This document shows positions 13,628-27,920 of a DNA stretch of 64,000 nucleotides, piece after piece. The notes under the pieces were generated by a model, which saw nothing but the letters and a program-made list of their open reading frames with translations, had not been told where the DNA came from and searched no databases. Position numbers and translations under genes: made by a program. Source of the DNA: an uncultured Clostridia bacterium (lineage in GTDB: Bacteria; Bacillota; Clostridia; Oscillospirales; Ruminococcaceae); the NCBI GenBank assembly GCA_947632025.1, contig CANRNN010000003.1, forward strand, positions 124,001 through 188,000, in the 5' to 3' direction. Position 1 is the stretch's first letter, and each line of letters begins with the position of its first letter.

Positions 13628-13656
13628 TTGACAAATCGTACAAATTGTTGTATATT
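13628..13656 (+). promoter_or_regulatory. SigA-type promoter for the ABC exporter
   Basis: TTGACA (13628-13633), 17 bases, TATATT (13651-13656). A second AT-rich TATAAT lies just downstream. Confidence 0.7.
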
Positions 13657-13696
13657 ATTATATAATGGATTATTATTTTGTATGGAAAGGGAAAAT

Positions 13697-14590
13697 ATGG
13701 TTACAATTACTGATCTGAAAAAAAGCTACGGTCGTTTTGAAGTCCTGCGGGGATTGAATATGTACGTCCACGATGGGGACATTTACGGTTTTCTGGGAAG
13801 AAACGGCTGCGGAAAAACCACAACAATGAACATTATTTGCGACATTATACCGAAAGATTCGGGAAATATCGTGATAGGCTCCGGCGGAGAAAAACGCACC
13901 AAGATAGGCTATCTGCCCGAAAGCCCGACGATCTTCGGCTATATGACCGCCCGCGAGTATCTCGAATATATCGGCGCTTGCTGCGAGTACGACGGCGATA
14001 TCCCCAAACGAGCTTCGGAGGTCCTGAATATCGTAGGTCTGACGCAAGCCGCAGACCGCCGCACAAAAGGCTTTTCAAGAGGAATGACGCAGCGTCTGGG
14101 AATGGGCGCGGCTATTTTCAGAAAGCCGGAACTGCTGATTTTTGACGAGCCTACTTCCGCGCTCGACCCGCAGGGAAGAAGCGAGGTCATCGACATCATC
14201 AACCGCCTGAAATCCCTCGGAAGCACGATAATCCTGTCTACACATATCCTCTCCGACGTTGAAAAAGTCGCGAACCGCATAGGCATAGTAAGCGACGGCA
14301 AACTCGCGGAGGAGGGTGAGCTTACGGAGATACTCCGCAGACACGGCGGCGACGTTGTAAAGCTGTCTATCCGAGGACTTTCTCAGGAAAATAAGATAGC
14401 TCTCCTGAAAGTGGATTTCGCCCGTGCGGAATACGACGAGGTGACAAACACTTTCCGTTTTGGAACGGAAAACGCCGAGGAAACCGTCAAGCGCCTGACA
14501 AAAATAATTTCCGAAAACGATATGATAATCGAGAAAATGGAAATAGGCACGGCGACTCTTGATGAGGTTTTCAGAAAGGTAAGCGGATAA
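13697..14590 (+). CDS. ABC transporter ATP-binding protein (ABC-2 exporter type)
   Basis: 297 aa. Walker A GRNGCGKTT near residue 37, signature FSRGMTQRL near 133, Walker B LLIFDEPTSALDP near 150, and the switch histidine in STHILSDVE near 188. The C-terminal 70 residues form the extra domain seen in single-nucleotide-domain drug, lipid or Na+ exporters (NatA/DrrA-like). ATG at 13697 is used because GGAAAGGGAAA stands directly upstream. It pairs with the membrane protein that starts 21 bases after its stop. The cargo is unknown. Confidence 0.93.
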   Translation: MVTITDLKKSYGRFEVLRGLNMYVHDGDIYGFLGRNGCGKTTTMNIICDIIPKDSGNIVIGSGGEKRTKIGYLPESPTIFGYMTAREYLEYIGACCEYDGDIPKRASEVLNIVGLTQAADRRTKGFSRGMTQRLGMGAAIFRKPELLIFDEPTSALDPQGRSEVIDIINRLKSLGSTIILSTHILSDVEKVANRIGIVSDGKLAEEGELTEILRRHGGDVVKLSIRGLSQENKIALLKVDFARAEYDEVTNTFRFGTENAEETVKRLTKIISENDMIIEKMEIGTATLDEVFRKVSG

Positions 14591-14611
14591 TAAGAAAGGA
14601 GCATAAAATTT

Positions 14612-15490
14612 ATGCAGCTTAAATACAGCTTCAAAAAGGAAATTTCACAGTTTTTCAGGACATTCAAATTCTGGGGCATTCTTATATGCGTGTTTTCATT
14701 CGGAATATCAACGCCTTTGCTCTTCAAGTTTACGGAGCAGATGCTTAAAATGATGAACAGCGAAACTCTCACGGCTGCGTTTGATCCGCAGCAGACCCCC
14801 GAAATTCCGTCAGGCGGAATACTCGGCGAGAACATAAGCGAAATGCTTGGTCTATACTCCGATGCCGGAATGATGTTTTATATGACGGTCGCGATGTACG
14901 CGAGCTATTCGATGCTGGTAGTGATGTTGCTGCTGATGTCGGCTGCCGGCGGAGAGCAGAAAAAACGTGCGATGATAGTCCCTATGTGCAGCGGTCTGAA
15001 TTTGAAAAGCTATCTCCTGCCGAAATTTATTCTGTACCCCATGACGATTTTTGTCGTGCATTTTATCGGCGCTTTGTTTGCGGGATTCCTCTGCAACGTA
15101 ATGTTCCAAAACAACCATATCCCGTTTGACAAGCTCCTGCTGATATCGTTACTGATATCTGTTTACGTTGCATTTATGACGGCAATTTTCCTTTCGGTCG
15201 GAATATGCACATCTCGTCCGGGAGCGGCTGTGCCGTTGGTACTGCTTGGAGAAATGATACTTGAAAACCTGCTCATCGGGCTCGGACTTACGGAATTCCA
15301 CCCGTTTGCACTGCAGTCGTATATATCGGCGATCTCGTCTGGAGAATACGAGCCTTCCGAGCATGCCGCCGGAATAGCCGTTGCTGCAGTTTTGGCTATC
15401 GTCATTTCTGAGCTTATGTATCATCTGACATATGGGATCCTCAACGCTAAAAAGGTCGACAATCAGTCGGAGGATATTCCCGAATTCTGA
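14612..15490 (+). CDS. ABC-2 type exporter permease
   Basis: 292 aa with six predicted membrane helices (about residues 20-40, 95-118, 145-168, 180-200, 212-235, 255-275) and an extracytoplasmic segment between the first two, the plan of ABC-2 permeases. The N-terminus YSFKKEISQFFRTFKFW resembles the amphipathic lead helix of that family. It forms the channel for the ATPase encoded just upstream. The ribosome site AGAAAGGAG is 9 bases ahead of ATG. Confidence 0.88.
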   Translation: MQLKYSFKKEISQFFRTFKFWGILICVFSFGISTPLLFKFTEQMLKMMNSETLTAAFDPQQTPEIPSGGILGENISEMLGLYSDAGMMFYMTVAMYASYSMLVVMLLLMSAAGGEQKKRAMIVPMCSGLNLKSYLLPKFILYPMTIFVVHFIGALFAGFLCNVMFQNNHIPFDKLLLISLLISVYVAFMTAIFLSVGICTSRPGAAVPLVLLGEMILENLLIGLGLTEFHPFALQSYISAISSGEYEPSEHAAGIAVAAVLAIVISELMYHLTYGILNAKKVDNQSEDIPEF

Positions 15491-15510: not shown

Positions 15511-15545
15511 ACGCGGCGGAATAAAACCCGCCGCGTTTGTTTTAT
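15511..15545. terminator. terminator between convergent operons
   Basis: ACGCGGCGG (15511-15519) pairs with CCGCCGCGT (15528-15536), followed by TTTGTTTT. It serves the ABC exporter and sits at the end of the convergent signalling operon. Confidence 0.85.
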
Positions 15546-16906
15546 GTTACTTTTTTCTTTCCGCTAAGTCTTGCTATGCCGTATTCAAGTTGGATCTGAC
15601 CGTCGGTGTTCATTTTGTTAAAGTTGTCAGTTATGCGTTCGGCGACCATATCGCAGTTTTCGGAAGTGATATCCATAAGTATCACTATGACCTGATGTCC
15701 GGAATATCTCGTGGAAATATCCGACCTCCGCAAACAGGAGTATATGGACTTTTCAAGTATCTCCACGGCTCGTTCAGTCCTTTTCGCGTCGTCAGCGCCG
15801 CTTACCGTAAACAGCACTATCTGGACGTTCTTGTTGCCGCGTTCAACAAATCTCCGTATAAAATTGTAGACGTGATGGAAACTCTCAAATTCCATCTGAT
15901 ATGCGCCGGTTCCTCCGTCGGCGCGGTCCATTATATCCTGAAGATAGTCAATGCTTATTGTTTTTTCGCCGCGTGCCGATTCCGCTGCCATTCTGTCGCT
16001 GAAGAAGTGGTAGGAGTTCTTTCCGTTCTGCTTGACAAAATACAGCGCTTTGTCTGCGGAATTGTAAAGCGAAGCAAAATCCTCGCCGTCGCCGGGAGCA
16101 ATAGAAATTCCGATAGAAACAGAGGTGTCGGTTTCAAAATGATTTTCGTCTATCTTACGGCAGATGTCGTGGATAATATCCGCCGCACGGAGAGAAAGCT
16201 CCGGCTTTGAAGTCACGTCCTTAACGAAAATAACAAACTCGTCGCCGCCTATTCTGCAAAGGACATCGCCTTCCTCCGAAAATTCGCGCATTGTATCCGC
16301 AAACATTTTAAGCGTCTTGTCACCGGCGATATGTCCGTAATTGTCGTTGATAAGCTTGAAATTGTCCATATCTATCATCATTACGGCACCGCCCGAACCG
16401 CTGAGCAGTATGGTGTTCACGGCTTCCTCGGCGTATTGTCTGTTCCACAAGCCTGTCAGCGCGTCGTGTCCGGCGCGGTTTTTTATATCGGAAACCTCGC
16501 GTATTTTCTGTTCGAGCCTGTCGGCAAGACCGCGGCGCAGCTCGTCAAGCTCCAGTATCCTCCCTATTCTGTGGAGCATAACGGCGGGTACGAACGGCTT
16601 TGCGATAAAGTCGATAGCACCTTCCTTAAAGCATCTCGCCTCGGTTTCGGAATCGTTGTCGCCCGTGAGGAATATCACGGGAATTTCTCTCAGCCGCTCT
16701 GATTCGCGGAGCTTGCGCATCACCTCAAAGCCGTCCATTTCGGGCATATTTATATCAAGCAGGATAACGTCGCAGTCGCCCGTTTCGAGGTAAGCCAAAG
16801 CCTGCTGTCCCTTTTTCACGAGAATGACTTTATATGTATCGCTCAAAACTTCTCGCGTCGTCTGGAGATTTACGTTGTCGTCGTCGACAACAAGAATGGT
16901 TTTCAT
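15542..16906 (-). CDS. response regulator with GGDEF domain plus degenerate second GGDEF
   Basis: 454 aa. The receiver spans residues 1-120, with phosphoacceptor Asp51 in VILLDINMPEMDG and Lys103. A GGDEF domain with intact RIGGDEFVIF (about 218-227) follows, so diguanylate cyclase activity is likely. The inhibitory RxxD site is absent: the matching positions read EEGD. Residues 325-450 again resemble a GGDEF fold, but the motif has become RYSGHQVIVIL, so this copy should be inactive. ATG at 16906 has AAGGGG eight bases upstream; an in-frame GTG two codons earlier lacks good spacing. Last gene of the signalling operon. Confidence 0.92.
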   Translation of the reverse strand: MKTILVVDDDNVNLQTTREVLSDTYKVILVKKGQQALAYLETGDCDVILLDINMPEMDGFEVMRKLRESERLREIPVIFLTGDNDSETEARCFKEGAIDFIAKPFVPAVMLHRIGRILELDELRRGLADRLEQKIREVSDIKNRAGHDALTGLWNRQYAEEAVNTILLSGSGGAVMMIDMDNFKLINDNYGHIAGDKTLKMFADTMREFSEEGDVLCRIGGDEFVIFVKDVTSKPELSLRAADIIHDICRKIDENHFETDTSVSIGISIAPGDGEDFASLYNSADKALYFVKQNGKNSYHFFSDRMAAESARGEKTISIDYLQDIMDRADGGTGAYQMEFESFHHVYNFIRRFVERGNKNVQIVLFTVSGADDAKRTERAVEILEKSIYSCLRRSDISTRYSGHQVIVILMDITSENCDMVAERITDNFNKMNTDGQIQLEYGIARLSGKKKVT

Positions 16907-16921
16907 AAGCACAGCCCCTTT

Positions 16922-17722
16922 TTATTCGAGTATAGCTTCCTTTATCCCGTAAATTTCCGCAAGCTCTTCCATAGTTCCGTCCGTGCCTGCACCTTTGAGA
17001 AATTTATTCAGCTCGTCCGTGAGATCCGAATTTTTCCGCAGTCCGACGCAGATCTTCTCATCGTTCAGCGGAAAATTGAACGCCAGCTTATCGAATTCGT
17101 TGCCGTCGGCGGTGTAATATCCTGCCATAATAATATCAATAACTGCCGCGTCCGTTTTGCCCTCAACTACGCTTTGAAGCGCGTCTTTCTGCGTATCGCA
17201 GACCGTGTACCGATAATTTTTTTCTTTAAGTATGCTCTCACCCGTCGAACCTGTTTCCGCTGCGAAAAGCAGGTGCTGACAATCCTCTGCCGACGAATAT
17301 TCTCCTATCGCTTCTTCCTTCATAATAATTACCTGAGCGTTTGAAATGTACACGTCAGAGCAGGTGATCTCCTGTGCAAGCTCGTCTGTATACGTCATTC
17401 CGTTCCACACGCAGTCGATAGTCCCGTCTTTCAGAAGCTGTGCTTTGCGGTCCCAGTCTATTTCGACAAATTCGGGTTCAACTCCCATTGTTTTGGCGAA
17501 CATAACCGCAAGCTGTGCGTCAAATCCGCTCCACTCGCCGTTTTCCTTAAAATCCATCGGCGCAAAATCGGTTATCCCGACAATAAGCGTTCCTTTATTG
17601 TGTACATATTCGCTGTCGGAATCTCCGTCTTTCAAAACGGACGGTTTTTCCTTTCCCGCACAGCCGCACATCATCACTGCTGCCAGCGAAAGCGCCGCTA
17701 TTTTCTTAAAAAAAGTGTTCAT
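16922..17722 (-). CDS. solute-binding lipoprotein, family 3 (amino-acid type)
   Basis: 266 aa. The signal peptide ends in the lipobox MCGC (Cys about residue 20), so it is tethered outside the membrane. GTLIVGITDFAPMDF (about residues 44-58) and WSGFDAQLAVMFAKTMG are the opening blocks of family 3 binding proteins that bind polar amino acids, and DGTIDCVWNGMTYTDE is the matching ligand-site region. No permease or ATPase gene lies nearby. Its place between two-component genes suggests it could present a ligand to a membrane kinase rather than feed a transporter; that is inference. Confidence 0.9.
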   Translation of the reverse strand: MNTFFKKIAALSLAAVMMCGCAGKEKPSVLKDGDSDSEYVHNKGTLIVGITDFAPMDFKENGEWSGFDAQLAVMFAKTMGVEPEFVEIDWDRKAQLLKDGTIDCVWNGMTYTDELAQEITCSDVYISNAQVIIMKEEAIGEYSSAEDCQHLLFAAETGSTGESILKEKNYRYTVCDTQKDALQSVVEGKTDAAVIDIIMAGYYTADGNEFDKLAFNFPLNDEKICVGLRKNSDLTDELNKFLKGAGTDGTMEELAEIYGIKEAILE

Positions 17723-17740: not shown

Positions 17741-20422
17741 TCATTGTTCCATAAACAGAAGCCCGAAAGAATTCGGTCCGCAGTTGATAGATATAGCCGG
17801 AGAAGCCTTCTGATATATCACGCGGTCGAATTTTATCCTTGTATTCACCTGTTTTGCTATGTTGTCCAACTCGTCGGGACTCATTCCCGCATAGGTGATA
17901 AAGAGCGTTTTCCTGTCTATTCTGTCGCGGTGTTTAAGCGCCGCGTTTATATATTTTTTTCTTACCGAGCTTTGGTTTCCGATATGGATAGCCGCTACTT
18001 TCATATTGCTTTTTTTGAGCTTTATAACGGGACGCATCATAAACAGCTCGCAGATTTTATTGACATTTTGCGGTATCCTGCCCGAACGTGCGAGATATTC
18101 CGTGCTTCCCACGACGAATGTGGTTCTGGTCTTTGCTTTTAGAAGCTCGATTTGAGCGAGTACCGCTTCCGCAGACATTCCCTGAGCGGCGTATTCGGCA
18201 GCTTTAAGCACGATAAGACCCATACCGCTCGACAGATGCCCCGAATCAACGACTGTGACATTATCGAAAGAACTCGATGCCTCAAGTGCCTTTTCATATC
18301 CTCGGCTTGCGTTTTTCGCCATCGAGATGTGGATTATGTGCTGCGCCTTTGTAAGCTGCTCGGCGAAAAACTGTTCATACTCGGAAACGCTCGGCTCTTC
18401 GGAGCGTGCTATCTTATTTTTCTGTGCGAGGTATGACAAGACGCCGTCTGTTTCTATCTCCTCGCCTGCCTTGAATTCTCCGCCCTCGGTGATGATGTGA
18501 TACGGAAGGACGGCGATATGACGATCCTTTGCGAATGATTCGGGAAAGTCGCTCACGCTGTCCGTAGTTATCAGCAACGGGCGTTTTTTCCCGTGTGCGA
18601 GAACGGGACCTACCAACACGTCGTTGAATTCTCCTGCCGAAGCAAGCGTCACAAGTTCCCTCGGTAGGTGTTTGAGAAGCTCACTTTCGAGCAGCTCACC
18701 GCTCACGGGCTTAAGCAGATACCCGTCGAATCCCTCGCGGTTATAGAGCGCCTGATTTTCTCCACCTGCATTAGCCGTAAGTACGACGATGGGTGTGTTG
18801 CGATTAAGTCCGCCTGCCTGCATTCGTATGGCGTGCAGGCACTCTATCCCGTCCATAACCGGCATAAGGTGATCCATAAAGATCATGTCATAGCGCTTGC
18901 TTTCGGTTTTCTTCAAGCACTCCTCGCCGCTTGACGCTGTATCCGTGCCGACTTTCGTGTCTTGAAGGAGCTTTGTCGCCACCATAAGGTTTGCATCGTT
19001 ATCGTCAACAATAAGGACGTTTGCCTTCGGAGCTTCAAAAAGCGCCCTGTAGTGTTCGCGGGTGTGCATTGTGTGCTTAGTTTCGAGGTCAAGCTCACCA
19101 ATAGCCTCGGTGCTGACGATCTTCTGCGGAAGTGTCACCATAAACGTCGAACCTTTGGTGTAAACGCTGTTTACCTCAATTTCTCCGCCCATAAGCACCA
19201 CCAGCTGCTTTACTATTGAAAGCCCCAGACCCGTGCCCTCGATATGACGGTTTTTCTCCTCGTCCACACGCTTGAACGCGCTGAAAAGGTGCGGAATATT
19301 TTCTTTTTTAATACCCATTCCCGTATCGGATACGGTATAGGTGATATACGCCGTGTCGTCTTCTTTTTTAAGTGTCTGGATGGACAGCGTCACCGACCCG
19401 TCGGGAGTGTATTTCACGGCGTTGTTCAGCAGGTTTATGATTATCTGTTTTATTCTCACCTCATCGCCGAAAAGCCTTGCGGGGATATTTTCGTCGACAT
19501 TTATGTGGAATTCCAGCCCCTTGTCCTGTGCGCGTATCCATATCATATTCACGACATCTGAAAGCATTGACCCCACGTCGTATTCCACGGGAACGATATC
19601 CATTTTGCCCGATTCTATCTTCGACATATCCAGTATATCGTTGATAAGCGACAGCAGCATTTTACTTGCGGACTGAATATTTTTTGCGTCGTAAGCCACC
19701 TCGTCCGTCACTGTCTCGCGGAGGATCATCTCGTTCAAACCGATTATCGTATTTATAGGGGTTCTGATCTCGTGCGACATACTCGAAAAAAATCTGTTCT
19801 GCGCCCTGTTAAGTTCTTCTATTTCTTCCTTCTGCTTTTCGGTCTTTCTGTTTTCGGAGCGGTATACGGCGTTCTGGAACAGCAGCATTCCGCAGACGAC
19901 GAACGACACCAGCACTACCGTTATCAGAGAATCTATGTACGCCATATTCAGCGTGTGCTGTATGATCTTAGTGGGATAATGATACGCGAAGTAATAACAC
20001 CCAAGCAGCGTAAGCACCCCGCCCACCATAAGGAAATACTTCGCTTTTCCCTGAACGACTATCGTAGCCAGTACGAATCCCACAATAAACCATATCGGTG
20101 CGCCGCCGTAAATTCCTCCCGCCGAAACGAAGTTGAACGGCAGCACCACGAACATTGCAATAGCGGCAAGCACAATAGAGCCTACCTGTATCCTTTTCGC
20201 CTTTATTGAAATTATTACTATGCTTACCAGTACCGCAAAAGCTATTGCCATAGCTATGACATTAGTCAGCGACTCTCCCGAAAAAAAACCTACGATCGCT
20301 CCCGTAGCCAGACCTGTCGCCCCTATTATGGAGATCAGCCTGAACAGTCTTTCCTGAAGCGGTCGTGTATAGTCGCCGATAGCTTTTTCCGCGAACTTTA
20401 TGATTTTTTTATTCACGAGCAT
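17741..20422 (-). CDS. hybrid histidine kinase-receiver fused to a C-terminal DegV/FakB-like domain
   Basis: 893 aa. Residues 25-185 hold six hydrophobic helices with hardly any extracytoplasmic domain. HisKA follows with His217 in SSMSHEIRTPINTIIG, then HATPase (N-box NLLNNAVKY near 331, G-box EGTGLGLSIV near 395). The receiver runs from 467 to 590 with Asp517. Residues 615-893 are a full DegV domain: ITTDSVSDFP, HISMAKNASRGY, VVDSGHLSSGMG, the Arg motif YLARSGRIPQ, and a closing NCGPNSFGL where DegV proteins usually have His-x-Gly-Pro. DegV/FakB proteins bind single fatty acids. The fusion suggests that lipid binding modulates, or is modulated by, the phosphorelay. ATG at 20422 (an adjacent GTG at 20425 is possible). 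It overlaps the upstream gene by 14 bases. Confidence 0.9.
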   Translation of the reverse strand: MLVNKKIIKFAEKAIGDYTRPLQERLFRLISIIGATGLATGAIVGFFSGESLTNVIAMAIAFAVLVSIVIISIKAKRIQVGSIVLAAIAMFVVLPFNFVSAGGIYGGAPIWFIVGFVLATIVVQGKAKYFLMVGGVLTLLGCYYFAYHYPTKIIQHTLNMAYIDSLITVVLVSFVVCGMLLFQNAVYRSENRKTEKQKEEIEELNRAQNRFFSSMSHEIRTPINTIIGLNEMILRETVTDEVAYDAKNIQSASKMLLSLINDILDMSKIESGKMDIVPVEYDVGSMLSDVVNMIWIRAQDKGLEFHINVDENIPARLFGDEVRIKQIIINLLNNAVKYTPDGSVTLSIQTLKKEDDTAYITYTVSDTGMGIKKENIPHLFSAFKRVDEEKNRHIEGTGLGLSIVKQLVVLMGGEIEVNSVYTKGSTFMVTLPQKIVSTEAIGELDLETKHTMHTREHYRALFEAPKANVLIVDDNDANLMVATKLLQDTKVGTDTASSGEECLKKTESKRYDMIFMDHLMPVMDGIECLHAIRMQAGGLNRNTPIVVLTANAGGENQALYNREGFDGYLLKPVSGELLESELLKHLPRELVTLASAGEFNDVLVGPVLAHGKKRPLLITTDSVSDFPESFAKDRHIAVLPYHIITEGGEFKAGEEIETDGVLSYLAQKNKIARSEEPSVSEYEQFFAEQLTKAQHIIHISMAKNASRGYEKALEASSSFDNVTVVDSGHLSSGMGLIVLKAAEYAAQGMSAEAVLAQIELLKAKTRTTFVVGSTEYLARSGRIPQNVNKICELFMMRPVIKLKKSNMKVAAIHIGNQSSVRKKYINAALKHRDRIDRKTLFITYAGMSPDELDNIAKQVNTRIKFDRVIYQKASPAISINCGPNSFGLLFMEQ

Positions 20423-23177
20423 CACCGCCTTTTACGCGCCCGATAAGCGCGGACGTTTTTTCCGAAGCCGATTCATACTCGAACTCGTCAACATCGCGGC
20501 TTACGCTGTCAAGTGTCTTTTTCAGCGGCTCGCCGCCATAGGAATACCGGCTAAGGTCGCCTAACAGTTTCTGCGCCTTGTCCGCTTCATACGTTCCGAA
20601 ACAATTAAGAAGCTCCGACAGAGTATTCAGCAGAGTTTCCGCGTCTATTTCCTCGCACTTTGAATTTTCGCCGTCATCAGATTTTTCTAATCCGACAGCG
20701 CTGCCTATTATCTTCACTGTTTCCTTGAAAAGCTCTGTCAGTGCGCCATGATTTTTCCCGACGAATTCTGCGTCATGCTCCTTTGAAGCGTCCTCCAGCT
20801 CCTTTGCTTTCTGCGAGAGTATATCCGCTCCGAGCATTTTTGACGAGCTTTTCAATGCGTGGACCTGTATCCTGTATCCGTCCCAGTCACTCGCAGCAAA
20901 AAGCCGTTCAAGCTCCGAAGCCTTTGAGTTTGCGTCCGACACGAATTTCGACAATATCTGAATGTAGAAATCCTTATCCTTACGGCAGTATGTAAGTCCC
21001 GCACGGGTATTTATCCCTGCTTTTTCAAGGACGGCGATGGGGTCGGTGTTTTCTTCGTCCTTTACGGGAACATCTTTCTTTTCTGCGGGCTTTTCCGCTG
21101 CCGGAATATTTTCTTCGATCTCTTTTTCGGCAATGAATTTTATTCTGGAATTTGGCAGCACTTTTCTCAAAACACGCTCAAGCTCGGCGGATTCGACAGG
21201 CTTTGACAAAAAATCGTCGAATCCCTCGCGCAAAAACATTTCTCTCGAACCGCTCACGGCGTTTGCCGTAAACGCCACGACCGTGAACATATCCGTAGGG
21301 TCGTTTTTCAGCTTGCGCAGCATTTTCAAAGTTTCAACGCCGTCCATTTCGGGCATCATATGGTCGAGGAAGATAACGTCGAAGTCCTCGCTCTCGCATA
21401 TTGAAACCGCCTCTGCGCCGGAACCTGCTGTTTTTACCGACATCTGATAATCCTTGAGTATTCCCTCCGCTACAAGGCGGTTCATAGGCTCGTCGTCGAC
21501 TACGAGAGCCTTCACATCGGGGCAGACCATTCTCTGTCCTCTAACTGTCTGATCCTCTGCCGAGGAGTTCAGTACATTCACCACAGGGAAACAGTAGAAC
21601 GGCTTGTGCATTATCCTGGCTCTGCTTCCCGCACGCAGAGTACCCGCATCATCGGAAACGACCACTACGATTATATCTTCTGCCAGTTTTTCGATATAGT
21701 CCGCATCTTTCTCGTATTCTTCCTTTGCCACAAACAAATGCGTCAGACGGTATCTTGAAACCAGCGTTTCAAGCTCCGTAATATTGAACACCCTGTGTGC
21801 GGTAACGTCCAGTCCCTGAGTGATATGAGTTATCATTTCGTCATAGAACATTCTCACTTCGGGATTTTTATACTTTTCAGGCATAAGATAGCACGCCAGA
21901 CACAATTCCGACGGCTTTTCGACCTGCATTCCCGCAGCATTGTCGGCTATTTTCTGCGGAATGCTGACCGTCACGGAAGTACCTTTTCCGTACTCGCTTT
22001 CAATATGGACGAAGCCCTCCATAGCCTTTACCATTCCGTAAACTATCGGAAGTCCCAGTCCAAGTCCTCCCGCACGTCTTTTATAGCCGCGGCTGGACTG
22101 GTAAAATCTTTCTGTTATTCTTGAAAGGCTTTCGGCTTTCATACCTATTCCCGTATCCTTTACAAGGATACACAGATTCACGCCGTAGGTTTTTTTGAGA
22201 GCGTAGATCCTCACATAAACTCCGCCCTCGTCGGTAAATTTTACGGCATTGGAAATAAGGTGCTTTATTATCTTCTTTATTTTTCTGCCGTCACCGTAAA
22301 GTCCCGCCGGAATTTTTGCGTCTATGTCAAAAATAATCTCCGGCGAAGGCTTTGTACCCGTCATATTAAGCTCGGTGATGATATCGTTGACTATTGACGA
22401 CATCATATATGCTTCGTCGCTTATTGATATTCTTTCGGTATCTATTTCGGTATAATCAAGAATATCCTCTATCTGTCCGAAAAGGCGGTATCCCGCTTTC
22501 TGAACGGAGATCAGATTTTCGCGCTTTTCGGGGTCGTTCTCGTTTTTGAGCATTACGGCTGTAAGCCCCGTGACAGCGTTTATCGGGGTGCGCAATTCAT
22601 GAGAAACGTTTGTAAGGAAATCTTCCGTTCGGCGGTTTTCCTCCTTCAGACGCGAGATAAGCTCTTCGATATCCGCGTTCTTACTTTTGCGGCGTGCCTC
22701 TGTTTTTTTGAGGATCAGACCCGTTGTCACCACAAAAGCTATACAGAATAAAAGCCTTGCAATTTCCGGAGGAGCAAAGCTCCCTCCCGAAGAAAAAACG
22801 TTTATTATGTCATACGCGAGGACTCCGAAATAAAACAGCGCACAAAACGGTATCGGACTGTAAATTTCAGCAGAAAAAAACAGCAGAAATATCCCGATCA
22901 CAAGCGGCGCTATGACATATATCGAGCTTTCATGCGTTCCGAAAAACACGAATCCGTCCATAGCAGCGGCAAAATACACCCACATAAGCCACTTTTCGGG
23001 CATTTTCCGTGAAATGTACAACGCCCAGCAAGCGGCGATCTCGACAGCTAATCTTACAAGTGTACCTTTATCCCAGCCGTTCAGAATGATCTCTGCTCCC
23101 AGCGCGAACGCCAGCACCGTCAGTCCTATCGGAAGAATTTTTCCTGCCGAGCGCCCTTTGTCCTGTTTCGCGTACAT
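20409..23177 (-). CDS. hybrid histidine kinase with receiver and Hpt domains
   Basis: 922 aa. Membrane region, residues 15-155. HisKA has His193 in TNVSHELRTPINAVTG, and the HATPase carries the N-box HLISNAVKF (about 306) and the G-box AGGLGLGLPIV (about 369). Residues 425-535 resemble a receiver that has lost its phosphorylation site. A true receiver follows with Asp605 in VIFLDHMMPEMDG. An Hpt domain with His773 in HALKSSSKMLGA lies near the C-terminus, then about 110 residues of helices. This is the full set for an internal phosphorelay His-Asp-His. The Hpt could pass phosphate to the separate receiver proteins of the same operon. Confidence 0.93.
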   Translation of the reverse strand: MYAKQDKGRSAGKILPIGLTVLAFALGAEIILNGWDKGTLVRLAVEIAACWALYISRKMPEKWLMWVYFAAAMDGFVFFGTHESSIYVIAPLVIGIFLLFFSAEIYSPIPFCALFYFGVLAYDIINVFSSGGSFAPPEIARLLFCIAFVVTTGLILKKTEARRKSKNADIEELISRLKEENRRTEDFLTNVSHELRTPINAVTGLTAVMLKNENDPEKRENLISVQKAGYRLFGQIEDILDYTEIDTERISISDEAYMMSSIVNDIITELNMTGTKPSPEIIFDIDAKIPAGLYGDGRKIKKIIKHLISNAVKFTDEGGVYVRIYALKKTYGVNLCILVKDTGIGMKAESLSRITERFYQSSRGYKRRAGGLGLGLPIVYGMVKAMEGFVHIESEYGKGTSVTVSIPQKIADNAAGMQVEKPSELCLACYLMPEKYKNPEVRMFYDEMITHITQGLDVTAHRVFNITELETLVSRYRLTHLFVAKEEYEKDADYIEKLAEDIIVVVVSDDAGTLRAGSRARIMHKPFYCFPVVNVLNSSAEDQTVRGQRMVCPDVKALVVDDEPMNRLVAEGILKDYQMSVKTAGSGAEAVSICESEDFDVIFLDHMMPEMDGVETLKMLRKLKNDPTDMFTVVAFTANAVSGSREMFLREGFDDFLSKPVESAELERVLRKVLPNSRIKFIAEKEIEENIPAAEKPAEKKDVPVKDEENTDPIAVLEKAGINTRAGLTYCRKDKDFYIQILSKFVSDANSKASELERLFAASDWDGYRIQVHALKSSSKMLGADILSQKAKELEDASKEHDAEFVGKNHGALTELFKETVKIIGSAVGLEKSDDGENSKCEEIDAETLLNTLSELLNCFGTYEADKAQKLLGDLSRYSYGGEPLKKTLDSVSRDVDEFEYESASEKTSALIGRVKGGDARE

Positions 23178-23186
23178 AACGCCCTC

Positions 23187-24218
23187 CTACTTTTCCCTCA
23201 TATGGTAATCTTTATCCTCATCTATCATATCGAGCATTATATCCGCGAATTTAGGGTCAAACTGAACTCCCCGCCCCTCGGCAACTTCCTGTCTTACCTG
23301 ATCCTGCGGGAGAACGTCGCGGTAGCTTCTGCGTGAGGTCATAGCGTCATAGGCGTCCGCCACGGCTATTATTCTCGCTTCTATCGGAATATTTTCCCCT
23401 GCCAGTCCGTCGGGATAGCCGCGTCCGTCATATCGCTCGTGGTGGAATCTTGCCCCCGTCACGAGTCTTGGAAATTCCTCAATAAGCTTCAGTATTTTTT
23501 CTCCCATTACAGGGTGTGCCATAATTACGGCTCTTTCTTCGGGGTCAAGTTTGCCGGGCTTATTGATGATAGCGTCGGGGATACCTATTTTCCCTACGTC
23601 GTGCAGAAGCCCTATCATATAGATGTTGTCCTGTTCTTCCCTTGAGAAGCCTGCTCTTGCGGCTATCATTCTTGAATAATCCGCCACTCTTGCCGAATGA
23701 CCGTTGGTATATTTATCTTTAGCGTCGATAGCTCCTGAAAGAGCCATACATATCTGCATTGAAATTTTTTCAAGCTTGATGTTCTGTGCGGTCAGCTCCA
23801 GTGTTTTCTGTTCTACCTCGAAAGCCAGATCTGCCTGAAGCCTGCTAAGCTCCACGATATGTTTTATTCTTAAAAGCAGGACTTCGGGATTGAACGGTTT
23901 TTTTATAAAGTCCATAGCTCCTGCTTTAAGACCTCTGGTTTCGGTATCGCTGTCGTCGTCAGCTGTCAGGAATATCACGGGAATTACCGAAGCGTCGGCG
24001 ATCTTATTTATCTCCGCAAGTGTCTGAAACCCGTCCATGACGGGCATATGTACATCAAGCAGGATAAGATCGGGTACCGCGATGCTTGACTGTAAAAACT
24101 TTACAGCCGCCTCGCCTGATTTTACGCAGCTTACTCTCATACCCTCTGCGCTCAGGATATTGTTTGCCATTTTGAGGTTTGCAGCATCATCGTCTATCAC
24201 GAGGATCCAGTAATTCAT
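23187..24218 (-). CDS. response regulator with HD-GYP domain (c-di-GMP phosphodiesterase)
   Basis: 343 aa. The receiver (residues 1-120) has its Asp in LILLDVHMPVMDG. The HD-GYP domain has all hallmark residues: NGHSARVADYS, LLHDVGKIGIPD, and HHERYDGRGYPDGL. Such proteins hydrolyse c-di-GMP to GMP via a metal centre. First gene of the five-gene signalling operon; the last encodes an enzyme that makes the same messenger. ATG at 24218 has CGGAGG six bases upstream. The next gene begins nine bases after its stop. Confidence 0.95.
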   Translation of the reverse strand: MNYWILVIDDDAANLKMANNILSAEGMRVSCVKSGEAAVKFLQSSIAVPDLILLDVHMPVMDGFQTLAEINKIADASVIPVIFLTADDDSDTETRGLKAGAMDFIKKPFNPEVLLLRIKHIVELSRLQADLAFEVEQKTLELTAQNIKLEKISMQICMALSGAIDAKDKYTNGHSARVADYSRMIAARAGFSREEQDNIYMIGLLHDVGKIGIPDAIINKPGKLDPEERAVIMAHPVMGEKILKLIEEFPRLVTGARFHHERYDGRGYPDGLAGENIPIEARIIAVADAYDAMTSRRSYRDVLPQDQVRQEVAEGRGVQFDPKFADIMLDMIDEDKDYHMREK

Positions 24219-25475: not shown

Positions 25476-27839
25476 TTAATATTTATCGCGTTCCATATTT
25501 ACAGTATAATTGACAGGCTGCATAGTAGCCTTTGAAACAGGCTGTGCGGCAGGAGTCGCCGTGCTTTCCGCTTTTACGGGAGCGGGAGCCGGCTTCGTTT
25601 CCGGAATAACGGGAGCCTCGCCCACAGAAGATGCGGAAGCGGGTTTCGCGGCAGGTCTTGCTGCGAATGAACCGGAAGGTTTTCCGACATTTGGCTTTTG
25701 TATATCACCCGGAAGAGTTATCGTCTTTGAACGCGCCGAGGTATTCAGGACGGGTTTCGGCTCGTTCTTTACCTCCTGCTTCGGCATTGCCGTAGCGGGC
25801 TTGGGCTTTTCTGCAGCGGCAGGTTTACTTTCAGCTGCCGCCTTTGGTCTTTCGGGAGCGGGTTTTGGTTTTTCCGCAGCAGCGGCTGACACGGACACGG
25901 GCTTGCTCTCTGATACGGCTTTAGGCTTGTTCACCGCTGTTTTTACGGGAGTCTGCGATTCGTCGATAATAAACTTGTCTACCGTTTCGCTCAACATTGC
26001 GGACTGCGCTGCGAGCAGCTGTGAGCTTTCCGCGCACTCTCCCGCCGAAGAGTTCACCTGATTTACGGACGCGGAGATCTTGTTCATACCCTCCATTACC
26101 CGCATTATGGACTGTGCCTGCTTGCCCGAAGCGTCGGCTATCTCTTCGACAACGCTTGCGGACTCTCTGGACTTTTCGACTATGGAATCAAGCATTTTAG
26201 CGGATTCGTTTGCTATCACAGTACCTCTGTCGACCGCTTTAAGGGAGTTTTCGATAAGTCCCTTTGAGGATTTCGCAGCTTCTGCGGCTTTCCCCGCGAG
26301 AGTGCCTACTTCCTCTGCGACAACGGCAAATCCCTTGCCCGCGTCGCCTGCCCGTGCAGCTTCGATAGCGGCGTTAAGCGCAAGGATATTTGTCTGGAAC
26401 GAAATATCCTGAATAGCCTTGATGATATTCGCTATTTCGGACGAGGTGTCGTTTATGTACTTCATAGCGCCGACCATCTCGTTCATCTTCTCGTTGGCTT
26501 CGTTCATAGCGTCGACGGTCTGTTCGGCTGTGCGGCGGGCAACATCGGCTTTATCGGCGCTTTCGTTTATCTGGTCGCGGACGTTTCCGAGGCTTTCGGA
26601 AAGTTCCTCAACGATAGCTGCCTCCTCGGAAGCCGCCGTAGACAGCGCTGCCGAGTTCGTCGACATCTGTGCAGAGGACGCGCTCACCTTGCTTCCCGCG
26701 CTGTCGATCTTCGCGATGACATCGCGCATTGATGTGACTATACTTTCAAGAGAATTCTTGACAGGCAGAAAATCGCCGAGGTACTGTGCTTTCGGGCGGA
26801 CGCAGAGGTTCTCGTTCGCTATCTGCTCTGCCGTTGAAGAAATATCCTCTATGATGTTGCTGTTGATATTCGCGAGATTGTTTACGGCGCCCGCCAGTTC
26901 ACCGAGTTCGTTTTCTGTTTCTATCTCGACCTTTTTAGAGGAGAGGTTGCCGTTGGACATTTCCATTATTTTCTCGCGGATAATTCCGAGCGGAAGTACT
27001 ATCTTTTTCCTTATTACGATATTGAAGAAGATGCCCAGTGCCGTCATAGCGGCAATAATTCCCAGATCCACGAAGAACGCTATAATAATGCCGTTATAGT
27101 ATTCGCCGCTCCTTGCGCACACGAGCAGTGTCCAGCCCGATTCGCCGATAGCCTCGGCGGAATAGACCTTGCGGCTGCCGCTTTCGCCTTTCGGGTGGAT
27201 ATCGACGAGCGAATGACCCGCGCCCATAACATAATTGGGATAACTCTCGCTGAAATCGTTATTTTCGGCGGACGCGGCAATGACCGTTCCGTTATCGGAC
27301 AGAATAAACACGTCGCAGGCGTTGCCGGATATGATACCGTCGAGCTTTGCGGCTTTCATATGCGACACGAGCGCCGCTCCGGAATTTGTCTTTATTCCGA
27401 GGTAAAAATCTCCGCTTCTCGATGCGGGGGTAGTAATGACGGAGGACGTTGACGAAAGTCCCTTTGTCACCTCATCGGGCAGTGCATCGCCGTAGACGGT
27501 ACCGTCCGCGCCGATATATGTAAGTGCGAGGACGTTCTCGTCAAAGGACGCGATAAGCTCTGCGTGTGCAGTTTTTTCTTCGGGAGTTCCGTTAGCGAAT
27601 TCCCAGTCGTTTGCGTGGTCGCTTACGAGAATATTGAGATTTCTCAGACCGCTCTCGACGCTTGAAGCGCAGCCCCTTAGATTCTCGGCAAGCATAGTCT
27701 TGACGTTCTTCTCAGTCTGAGTATATTGAATGATAATACTCGCCGTGATGTTCAGCACCAGCCCCAGCATAAGCAATACGCTTATCATAACGATATTGCC
27801 CATAATAGAGCGTTTTGTTCTTGTGGGTTGTGTACCCAT
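25476..27839 (-). CDS. methyl-accepting chemotaxis protein with long Pro/Ala-rich tail
   Basis: 787 aa. TM1 about residues 13-37, a ligand-binding ectodomain of about 210 residues (Cache-like by length and position), TM2 about 249-275, then HAMP. The signalling hairpin tip [20 protein letters not shown] lies near residue 480, with [14 protein letters not shown] after it. After the coiled coil, residues 631-787 are low-complexity Pro-Ala-Lys-Glu sequence ([18 protein letters not shown] and similar), ending MERDKY. No CheR-binding pentapeptide is seen. ATG at 27839 is chosen because GGAGGTGA precedes it; the open frame upstream to 27920 crosses the promoter. Confidence 0.93.
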
Positions 27840-27891
27840 AAGAGTCACCTCCGAAAATATTTTTAATGTTTGATAAATTCCGGCTATATAA

Positions 27892-27920
27892 ATTGTACCA
27901 CAAACCGATTCTCTTGTCAA
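27892..27920 (-). promoter_or_regulatory. SigA-type promoter for chemoreceptor-galM
   Basis: On the minus strand TTGACA (27920-27915), 17 bases, TACAAT (27897-27892). This separates the chemoreceptor transcript from the kinase gene just upstream. Confidence 0.8.

Follow-up and report, generated by a model that had tools for sequence, protein, structure and literature searches.

DegV/FakB proteins have a known role as carriers that serve fatty acid kinase. In FakB1 of Staphylococcus aureus, Thr62, Ser95, Ser171 and His270 form a network with the fatty acid carboxylate (PMC8892158, PMC9136124), Arg173 is a latch required for the kinase reaction (PMC8892158), and Arg205 binds the kinase FakA and meets the membrane (PMC9136124, PMC8892158). 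In S. aureus the two-component system SaeRS is also under FakA control, being altered by free fatty acid levels; this link is indirect, via fatty acid pools (PMC5539427). In the diffusible signal factor (DSF) system of Xanthomonas a fatty acid is bound by RpfC, a membrane kinase with histidine kinase (HK), receiver (REC) and histidine phosphotransfer (Hpt) domains (PMC5391125). Here we analyze a gene for a hybrid sensor kinase that ends in a complete DegV domain (HK-REC-DegV), found in a stretch of 64,000 nucleotides (the window) from an uncultured Clostridia bacterium of the Ruminococcaceae (contig CANRNN010000003.1, positions 124,001 to 188,000). The gene and its parts are as follows:

17741..20425, minus strand: HK-REC-DegV hybrid sensor kinase gene, 894 codons from a GTG start, 893 from an ATG at 20422
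19880..20359, minus strand: six predicted membrane helices, residues 23-182 (AlphaFold2 helices and hydropathy)
19607..19804, minus strand: HisKA, residues 208-273, with phospho-acceptor His218 in SHEIRTP (Pfam)
19121..19468, minus strand: HATPase_c, residues 320-435, with intact N and G boxes (Pfam)
18686..19018, minus strand: receiver, residues 470-580, with Asp518 and Lys572 (Pfam)
17747..18574, minus strand: DegV domain, residues 618-893 (Pfam, alignment and structure match)

The DegV domain of the window differs from FakB1 and FakB2 of S. aureus and from the Thermus thermophilus protein 2dt8 in being fused to, or in relatives encoded with, a hybrid kinase, in carrying hydrophobic residues instead of the basic patch at FakB2 positions 200 and 202, and in having an Asn at the site of FakB2 His266. 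The kinase gene is part of a signalling module that is conserved in Clostridia and, as far as our targeted searches of an open-licence library reach, undescribed. These searches gave no description of a fusion or pair of DegV with a kinase, receiver or HisKA domain, subscription journals being uncovered and absence therefore unproven; the preliminary description of this locus, made from the sequence without database searches, likewise knew of no system with this order of domains.

Architecture and distribution of the kinase-DegV protein

Pfam and the AlphaFold2 model agree on a single chain with six predicted membrane helices, HisKA, HATPase, receiver and a complete DegV domain, which bears out the unbroken frame and domain order read in the preliminary description. 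The model places the helices at residues 23-49, 53-76, 79-101, 109-123, 127-149 and 159-236, the last being continuous with the dimerisation helix of the kinase. HisKA, HATPase_c and a receiver, all above the Pfam cut-offs and with phospho-His and phospho-Asp in place, make the protein a hybrid histidine kinase. Among members below 80% identity, His218 is conserved in 121 of 125, Asn881 in 123 of 125, and both Asp518 and Lys572 in 125 of 125. The DegV profile (PF02645) and a FakB-like fold were both matched across the whole domain, and the predicted structure matches FakB structures over its entire length, which supports the complete DegV domain read in the preliminary description. The HisKA-HATPase-REC core resembles BarA, TorS and ArcB (NCBIfam matches under cut-offs); the differences are that here DegV follows the receiver and that the relay Hpt usually lies on another chain.

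A search with the DegV part returned 735 proteins at E 1e-3 or better. The kinase-receiver-DegV order, which the preliminary description proposed to look for in protein databases, recurs throughout the 120 homologues listed, window protein included: all have HATPase_c, receiver and DegV in one chain, and 116 of them exceed 700 aa with the same domains. Annotations, where there are any, read "DegV family protein" or "DegV family (protein with) EDD domain". A scan of genomes gave 202 confirmed relatives, 80 of which were kept; they come mostly from Lachnospiraceae and other Clostridia, mainly as metagenome-assembled genomes (MAGs), with a few genomes not labelled as MAGs, e.g., that of Butyrivibrio sp. 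CB08, a cultivable relative that carries the module (L043). The loci stem largely from related gut MAGs, so locus counts are not independent; sets reduced at 80% identity (125, 52 and 18 sequences) and at 60% (37 sequences) are used where they were made, and gene starts in the fetched loci were set mechanically. The DegV of the window at E 1e-40, a cut that misses distant members, was matched in 5 of 398 genomes of the phylum, including clear fusions in its own genome and G152, a free DegV in G387 and a broken frame in G126. The last (locus L173, 7032-9813, minus strand) is interrupted between the membrane and kinase parts, as a pseudogene or by sequencing error.

Short REC-DegV entries below 520 aa (359-518 aa among those listed) mostly have their start within the kinase or receiver, either at an internal Met or with no Met at all, and look like gene-call fragments rather than two-domain proteins; P0133, P0159, P0187, P0208, P0209 and P0235 start shortly ahead of the receiver and could be either. 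Precomputed FakA-like_C labels on some homologues (P0133, L072) turned out to be a weak match within DegV and no extra domain.

A second hybrid kinase, an Hpt in each paired module and a split form

The partner kinase with its Hpt, the enzymes of cyclic di-GMP (c-di-GMP) turnover and a split form of the module all go beyond the preliminary description. The partner overlaps the start of the HK-REC-DegV gene and has four membrane segments by hydropathy:

20409..23177, minus strand: partner hybrid kinase HK-REC-Hpt, 922 aa

The fetched loci contain 72 HK-REC-DegV frames longer than 450 aa, of which 71 have 400 nt or more of upstream sequence; directly before 69 of these 71 lies a gene for a second hybrid kinase related to the partner. 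The gap between the paired genes ranges from -104 to +55 nt, with an overlap in 56 of the 69 pairs, in 32 of them by 4 bases. In the two exceptions (L073 and L074) HK-REC-DegV is broken up into two frames, and the same kinase precedes the first piece. The partner's His193, Asp605 and Hpt His773 are each conserved in 49 of 52 partners below 80% identity. None of the 69 paired modules lacks an Hpt, be it part of one of the two kinases or a protein by itself. It is matched on the partner in 65 of 69, sits at the C-terminal end of the HK-REC-DegV chain in L043 and L045, and is a separate 312-residue protein directly upstream in the second copies of L031 and L046. In L148, from the class sample, it is on the DegV chain, and in L173 there is a separate REC-Hpt protein; the partner lacks an Hpt in both. 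The Hpt thus moves between chains yet stays in the module, as would be expected, judging by gene structure, if both kinases shared one relay. In L031 (3994-15440) and L046 (2695-14166) the kinase pair is tandemly duplicated, the separate Hpt protein accompanying the second copy.

In the sample of the genus (43 genomes searched at E 1e-42, several of them incomplete) the fused gene occurs in 7 genomes and a free DegV of the same type in 7 (eight genes), and no genome among the 43 had both forms. Seven of the eight free DegVs immediately follow an HK-REC-Hpt-type gene, and genes for REC-HD-GYP and/or REC-GGDEF are close by. Pfam finds kinase, receiver and Hpt in split loci L114, L117 and L168; the Hpt of L167 stays below reporting level, and phmmer gave the only matches to the kinase genes of L116, L165 and L166. 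Outside the genus, no kinase was found beside the free DegVs of L143-L147 (class sample, 23 match rows of which 8 were fetched) or of L174 (phylum sample).

In a tree of 83 DegV domains, made by a quick method with no bootstrap, fused and split DegVs form one clade (SH-aLRT 99), with 38 others outside. Within it the fused domains are one clade (SH-aLRT 98), and the split domains form another with weak support (73); in a first tree, the single split row fell among the fused rows without clear resolution. One recruitment and one fusion event are the simplest reading of the tree. The preliminary description's tie between this DegV and phosphotransfer signalling is, by pairing, split loci and the single clade, a conserved one.

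The DegV pocket, the docking patch and the neighbouring genes

For comparison with FakB2 we used residues which we take to be numbered 61, 93, 170, 202 and 266, and which fell on the expected letters in the alignment. FakB2 202 corresponds to FakB1 Arg205 and FakB2 Arg170 to FakB1 Arg173; the family alignment around FakB2 Ser93 is uncertain. FakB2 positions 61, 93, 170, 200, 202 and 266 align with Ser675, Ser707, Arg783, Ile813, Ile815 and Asn881 of the window protein. The sites of the carboxylate network (FakB1 Thr62, Ser95 and His270) are thus occupied by Ser675, Ser707 and Asn881, and the latch arginine is present.

At the docking pair, Lys or Arg at FakB2 200 or 202 occurs in 0 of 182 fused rows (a redundant set, window included), whereas free DegVs have Lys or Arg at the two positions in 35 of 35 and 33 of 35, respectively. 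Both positions are hydrophobic in 176 of the 182 fused rows and in 33 of the 37 fused sequences below 60% identity, and the split DegVs have Lys at 200 in none of 8. The standalone rows comprise a first set of 31, which includes the split form L107, and a set of 35 made from it by dropping L107 and adding five others. Judged by these residues, the link to FakA is lost in all fused rows, and the reading, implicit in the preliminary description, that this protein is not one of the carriers serving FakA gains support. The pocket mouth appears to be kept near the window protein (FakB2 Ser93 in 153 and Arg170 in 143 of the 182 fused rows) and to drift in more distant ones.

The preliminary description had also noted an Asn in place of the usual His and thought that ligand choice might differ. 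The Asn itself is there, in 181 of 182 fused rows; as a trait special to the fusion it is weakened by free DegVs, 9 of 35 of which have Asn at this position too. The genus also has another type of free DegV (L002, L105, L108-L113; 8 of 31 standalone rows), with His at FakB2 61, Asn at 266 and an intact basic patch. The window's own genome has two free DegV genes, and also a FakA-sized frame with a Dak2 domain.

Three further genes adjoin the kinase pair in the window:

23187..24218, minus strand: response regulator REC-HD-GYP, candidate c-di-GMP phosphodiesterase
15542..16912, minus strand: response regulator REC-GGDEF, candidate diguanylate cyclase, with a weak second GGDEF match (28 bits)
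16922..17722, minus strand: solute-binding protein SBP_bac_3 (Pfam)

Of the 58 modules with room for it, 38 have a REC-HD-GYP-like gene immediately before the pair, and an HD-GYP, GGDEF or EAL gene is found at most two genes from the pair in 36 of 45 fully flanked loci and in 47 of all 68. Genes of c-di-GMP turnover make up 42 of 180 genes within two places of the pair vs. 13 of 281 four to seven places away. EAL proteins (L026, L036, L061) or REC-GGDEF/HD-GYP fusions (L033, L167) take the same place in some loci. All 18 distinct REC-HD-GYP copies have both the HD and the GYP motif intact, and the window's own genome has 15 GGDEF, 8 HD_5 and one PilZ match.

RpfG, which belongs with RpfC, is a REC-HD-GYP protein. 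Compared by domain order, RpfC and RpfG are the closest working analogue of the window, where a membrane HK-REC-Hpt kinase likewise lies beside a REC-HD-GYP gene; the match is weak evidence because the architecture is common. The differences are a second hybrid kinase with DegV, or a free DegV, in the module described here, its occurrence in Clostridia rather than Proteobacteria, and the four membrane segments of the partner as opposed to five in RpfC (PMC5391125).

The SBP_bac_3 gene, with a lipoprotein-like start as judged by eye, stands directly behind the kinase in nearer relatives only, and its product may be an outside partner of the two kinases. Nearby, transporter-like genes were seen only at 13628-15490; these are ABC-like by eye and on the opposite strand. 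A chemotaxis receptor (MCP) gene lies one gene past REC-HD-GYP (25476-27920, minus strand), and in L009, L014 and L016 an MCP-like gene follows the module's solute-binding gene.

Possible roles of the DegV domain

The reading that we favor, to which we give an even chance, places the protein in a phosphorelay with likely c-di-GMP outputs, where it would be one of a pair of membrane hybrid kinases with overlapping genes; its DegV domain would be a recruited FakB-type lipid-binding regulatory module, most likely sensing a lipid or acyl group. The interpretation given in the preliminary description is in this way partly supported. The case for a signalling function of this DegV lineage, as opposed to that of a FakB carrier, rests on the loss of the docking patch, on the two free DegVs and the Dak2 frame of FakA size that the genome also has, and on the association with hybrid kinases in both fused and split genes. 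A sensory role is favored because DegV stays beside the kinase even without an attached receiver. From these comparisons we infer the ligand, the direction of the signal, the order of phosphotransfer and the neighbours as targets as follows. The six membrane helices and the DegV pocket would set the balance of kinase and phosphatase activity, phosphate would pass from His218 to a receiver Asp (the protein's own Asp518 or Asp605 of the partner) and from there to the module's Hpt (His773 of the partner in the window), and the Hpt would pass it to REC-HD-GYP and REC-GGDEF, changing c-di-GMP.

Several observations weigh against this reading. Domains that follow a receiver serve more often as outputs than as inputs. 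Entry P0142, of 641 aa and from a contig of 2.7 kb, has half of its residues in common with the window protein from residue 437 onward; it carries REC-DegV behind a VWA-like stretch (26.6 bits vs. a cut-off of 27) and no kinase, and could be a chimera or represent another architecture. Among the 37 sequences of the diverse fused set, Ser93 is kept in only 16 and Arg170 in 18; with the head-group residues drifting in this way, the ligand could be something other than a free fatty acid. Because the linked DegVs fall into one clade, the patch may have been lost just once, in an ancestor. Of the split DegVs, 4 of 8 do have Arg at 202. The eighth free split DegV (L115, on a 4.5-kb contig) has no adjoining kinase, 9 of 45 loci have no c-di-GMP neighbour, and the c-di-GMP neighbourhood, in loci that are mutually related, is no proof of wiring.

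An unlikely though serious alternative is that DegV is the output of the attached receiver, with phosphorylation switching lipid pick-up, release or membrane contact, so that signalling would control lipid traffic. The domain directly follows the receiver, the usual place of an effector, the receiver's Asp and Lys are invariant, the N-terminal membrane domain could be the sensor, and P0142 would offer a REC-DegV protein without kinase. However, the split DegV has no receiver and yet lies beside HK-REC-Hpt, the absence of the FakA-docking pair leaves the fused form no known client, and the linker between receiver and DegV is little conserved (0.44) and poorly predicted in the AlphaFold2 model. 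Still less probable is a ligand-free part for docking or dimerisation that keeps the two kinases together. The hydrophobic residues at 200 and 202 could form a protein interface, the head-group residues of the pocket drift in the diverse set, and FakA_C is described as a FakB-related protein-binding domain without a tunnel (PMC9136124). Against this, the model matches FakB over the whole domain, whereas three FakB segments, which make up the top of the tunnel, are missing from FakA_C (PMC9136124); the window protein also keeps Ser707 and Arg783, and Asn881 is nearly invariant.

That DegV is a membrane-tethered FakB carrier feeding FakA is very improbable, although the FakB fold, Arg783 and the FakA-sized Dak2-domain frame would suit it: the docking arginine (FakB1 Arg205; PMC9136124, PMC8892158) is absent in 182 of 182 fused rows, the arginine for the Fak reaction (FakB1 Arg173) is missing from about half of the diverse set, and the genome has its two free DegVs. 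That misassembly or a frame error fused a kinase to a separate DegV gene is ruled out by the 116 long proteins with the same domains, the window's own among them, and by the many assemblies from which the genes come; nothing in the window gene suggests it, even if some of the short REC-DegV entries resemble fragments left by gene calling. The relatives likewise contradict a frame error at the receiver-DegV junction, the weak point named in the preliminary description.

Within the favored reading of DegV as a lipid-binding regulatory module, a more specific version is somewhat less likely than not: an undescribed class of Clostridial two-kinase phosphorelays, in which occupancy of the FakB-fold pocket by an acyl ligand, a cytoplasmic fatty acid or a gut lipid signal, would gate the shared flow of phosphate into c-di-GMP. 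It would be a Gram-positive counterpart of the DSF/RpfC system with an intracellular lipid receptor, in fused and split forms. The DegV part is a separable domain open to ligand tests, and the free split DegV suits a simple in vitro kinase assay. A clade of DegV proteins tied to hybrid kinases would make a fold known from carriers a signalling receptor, and gut Clostridia would, if this is true, gain a direct route from lipid state to c-di-GMP.
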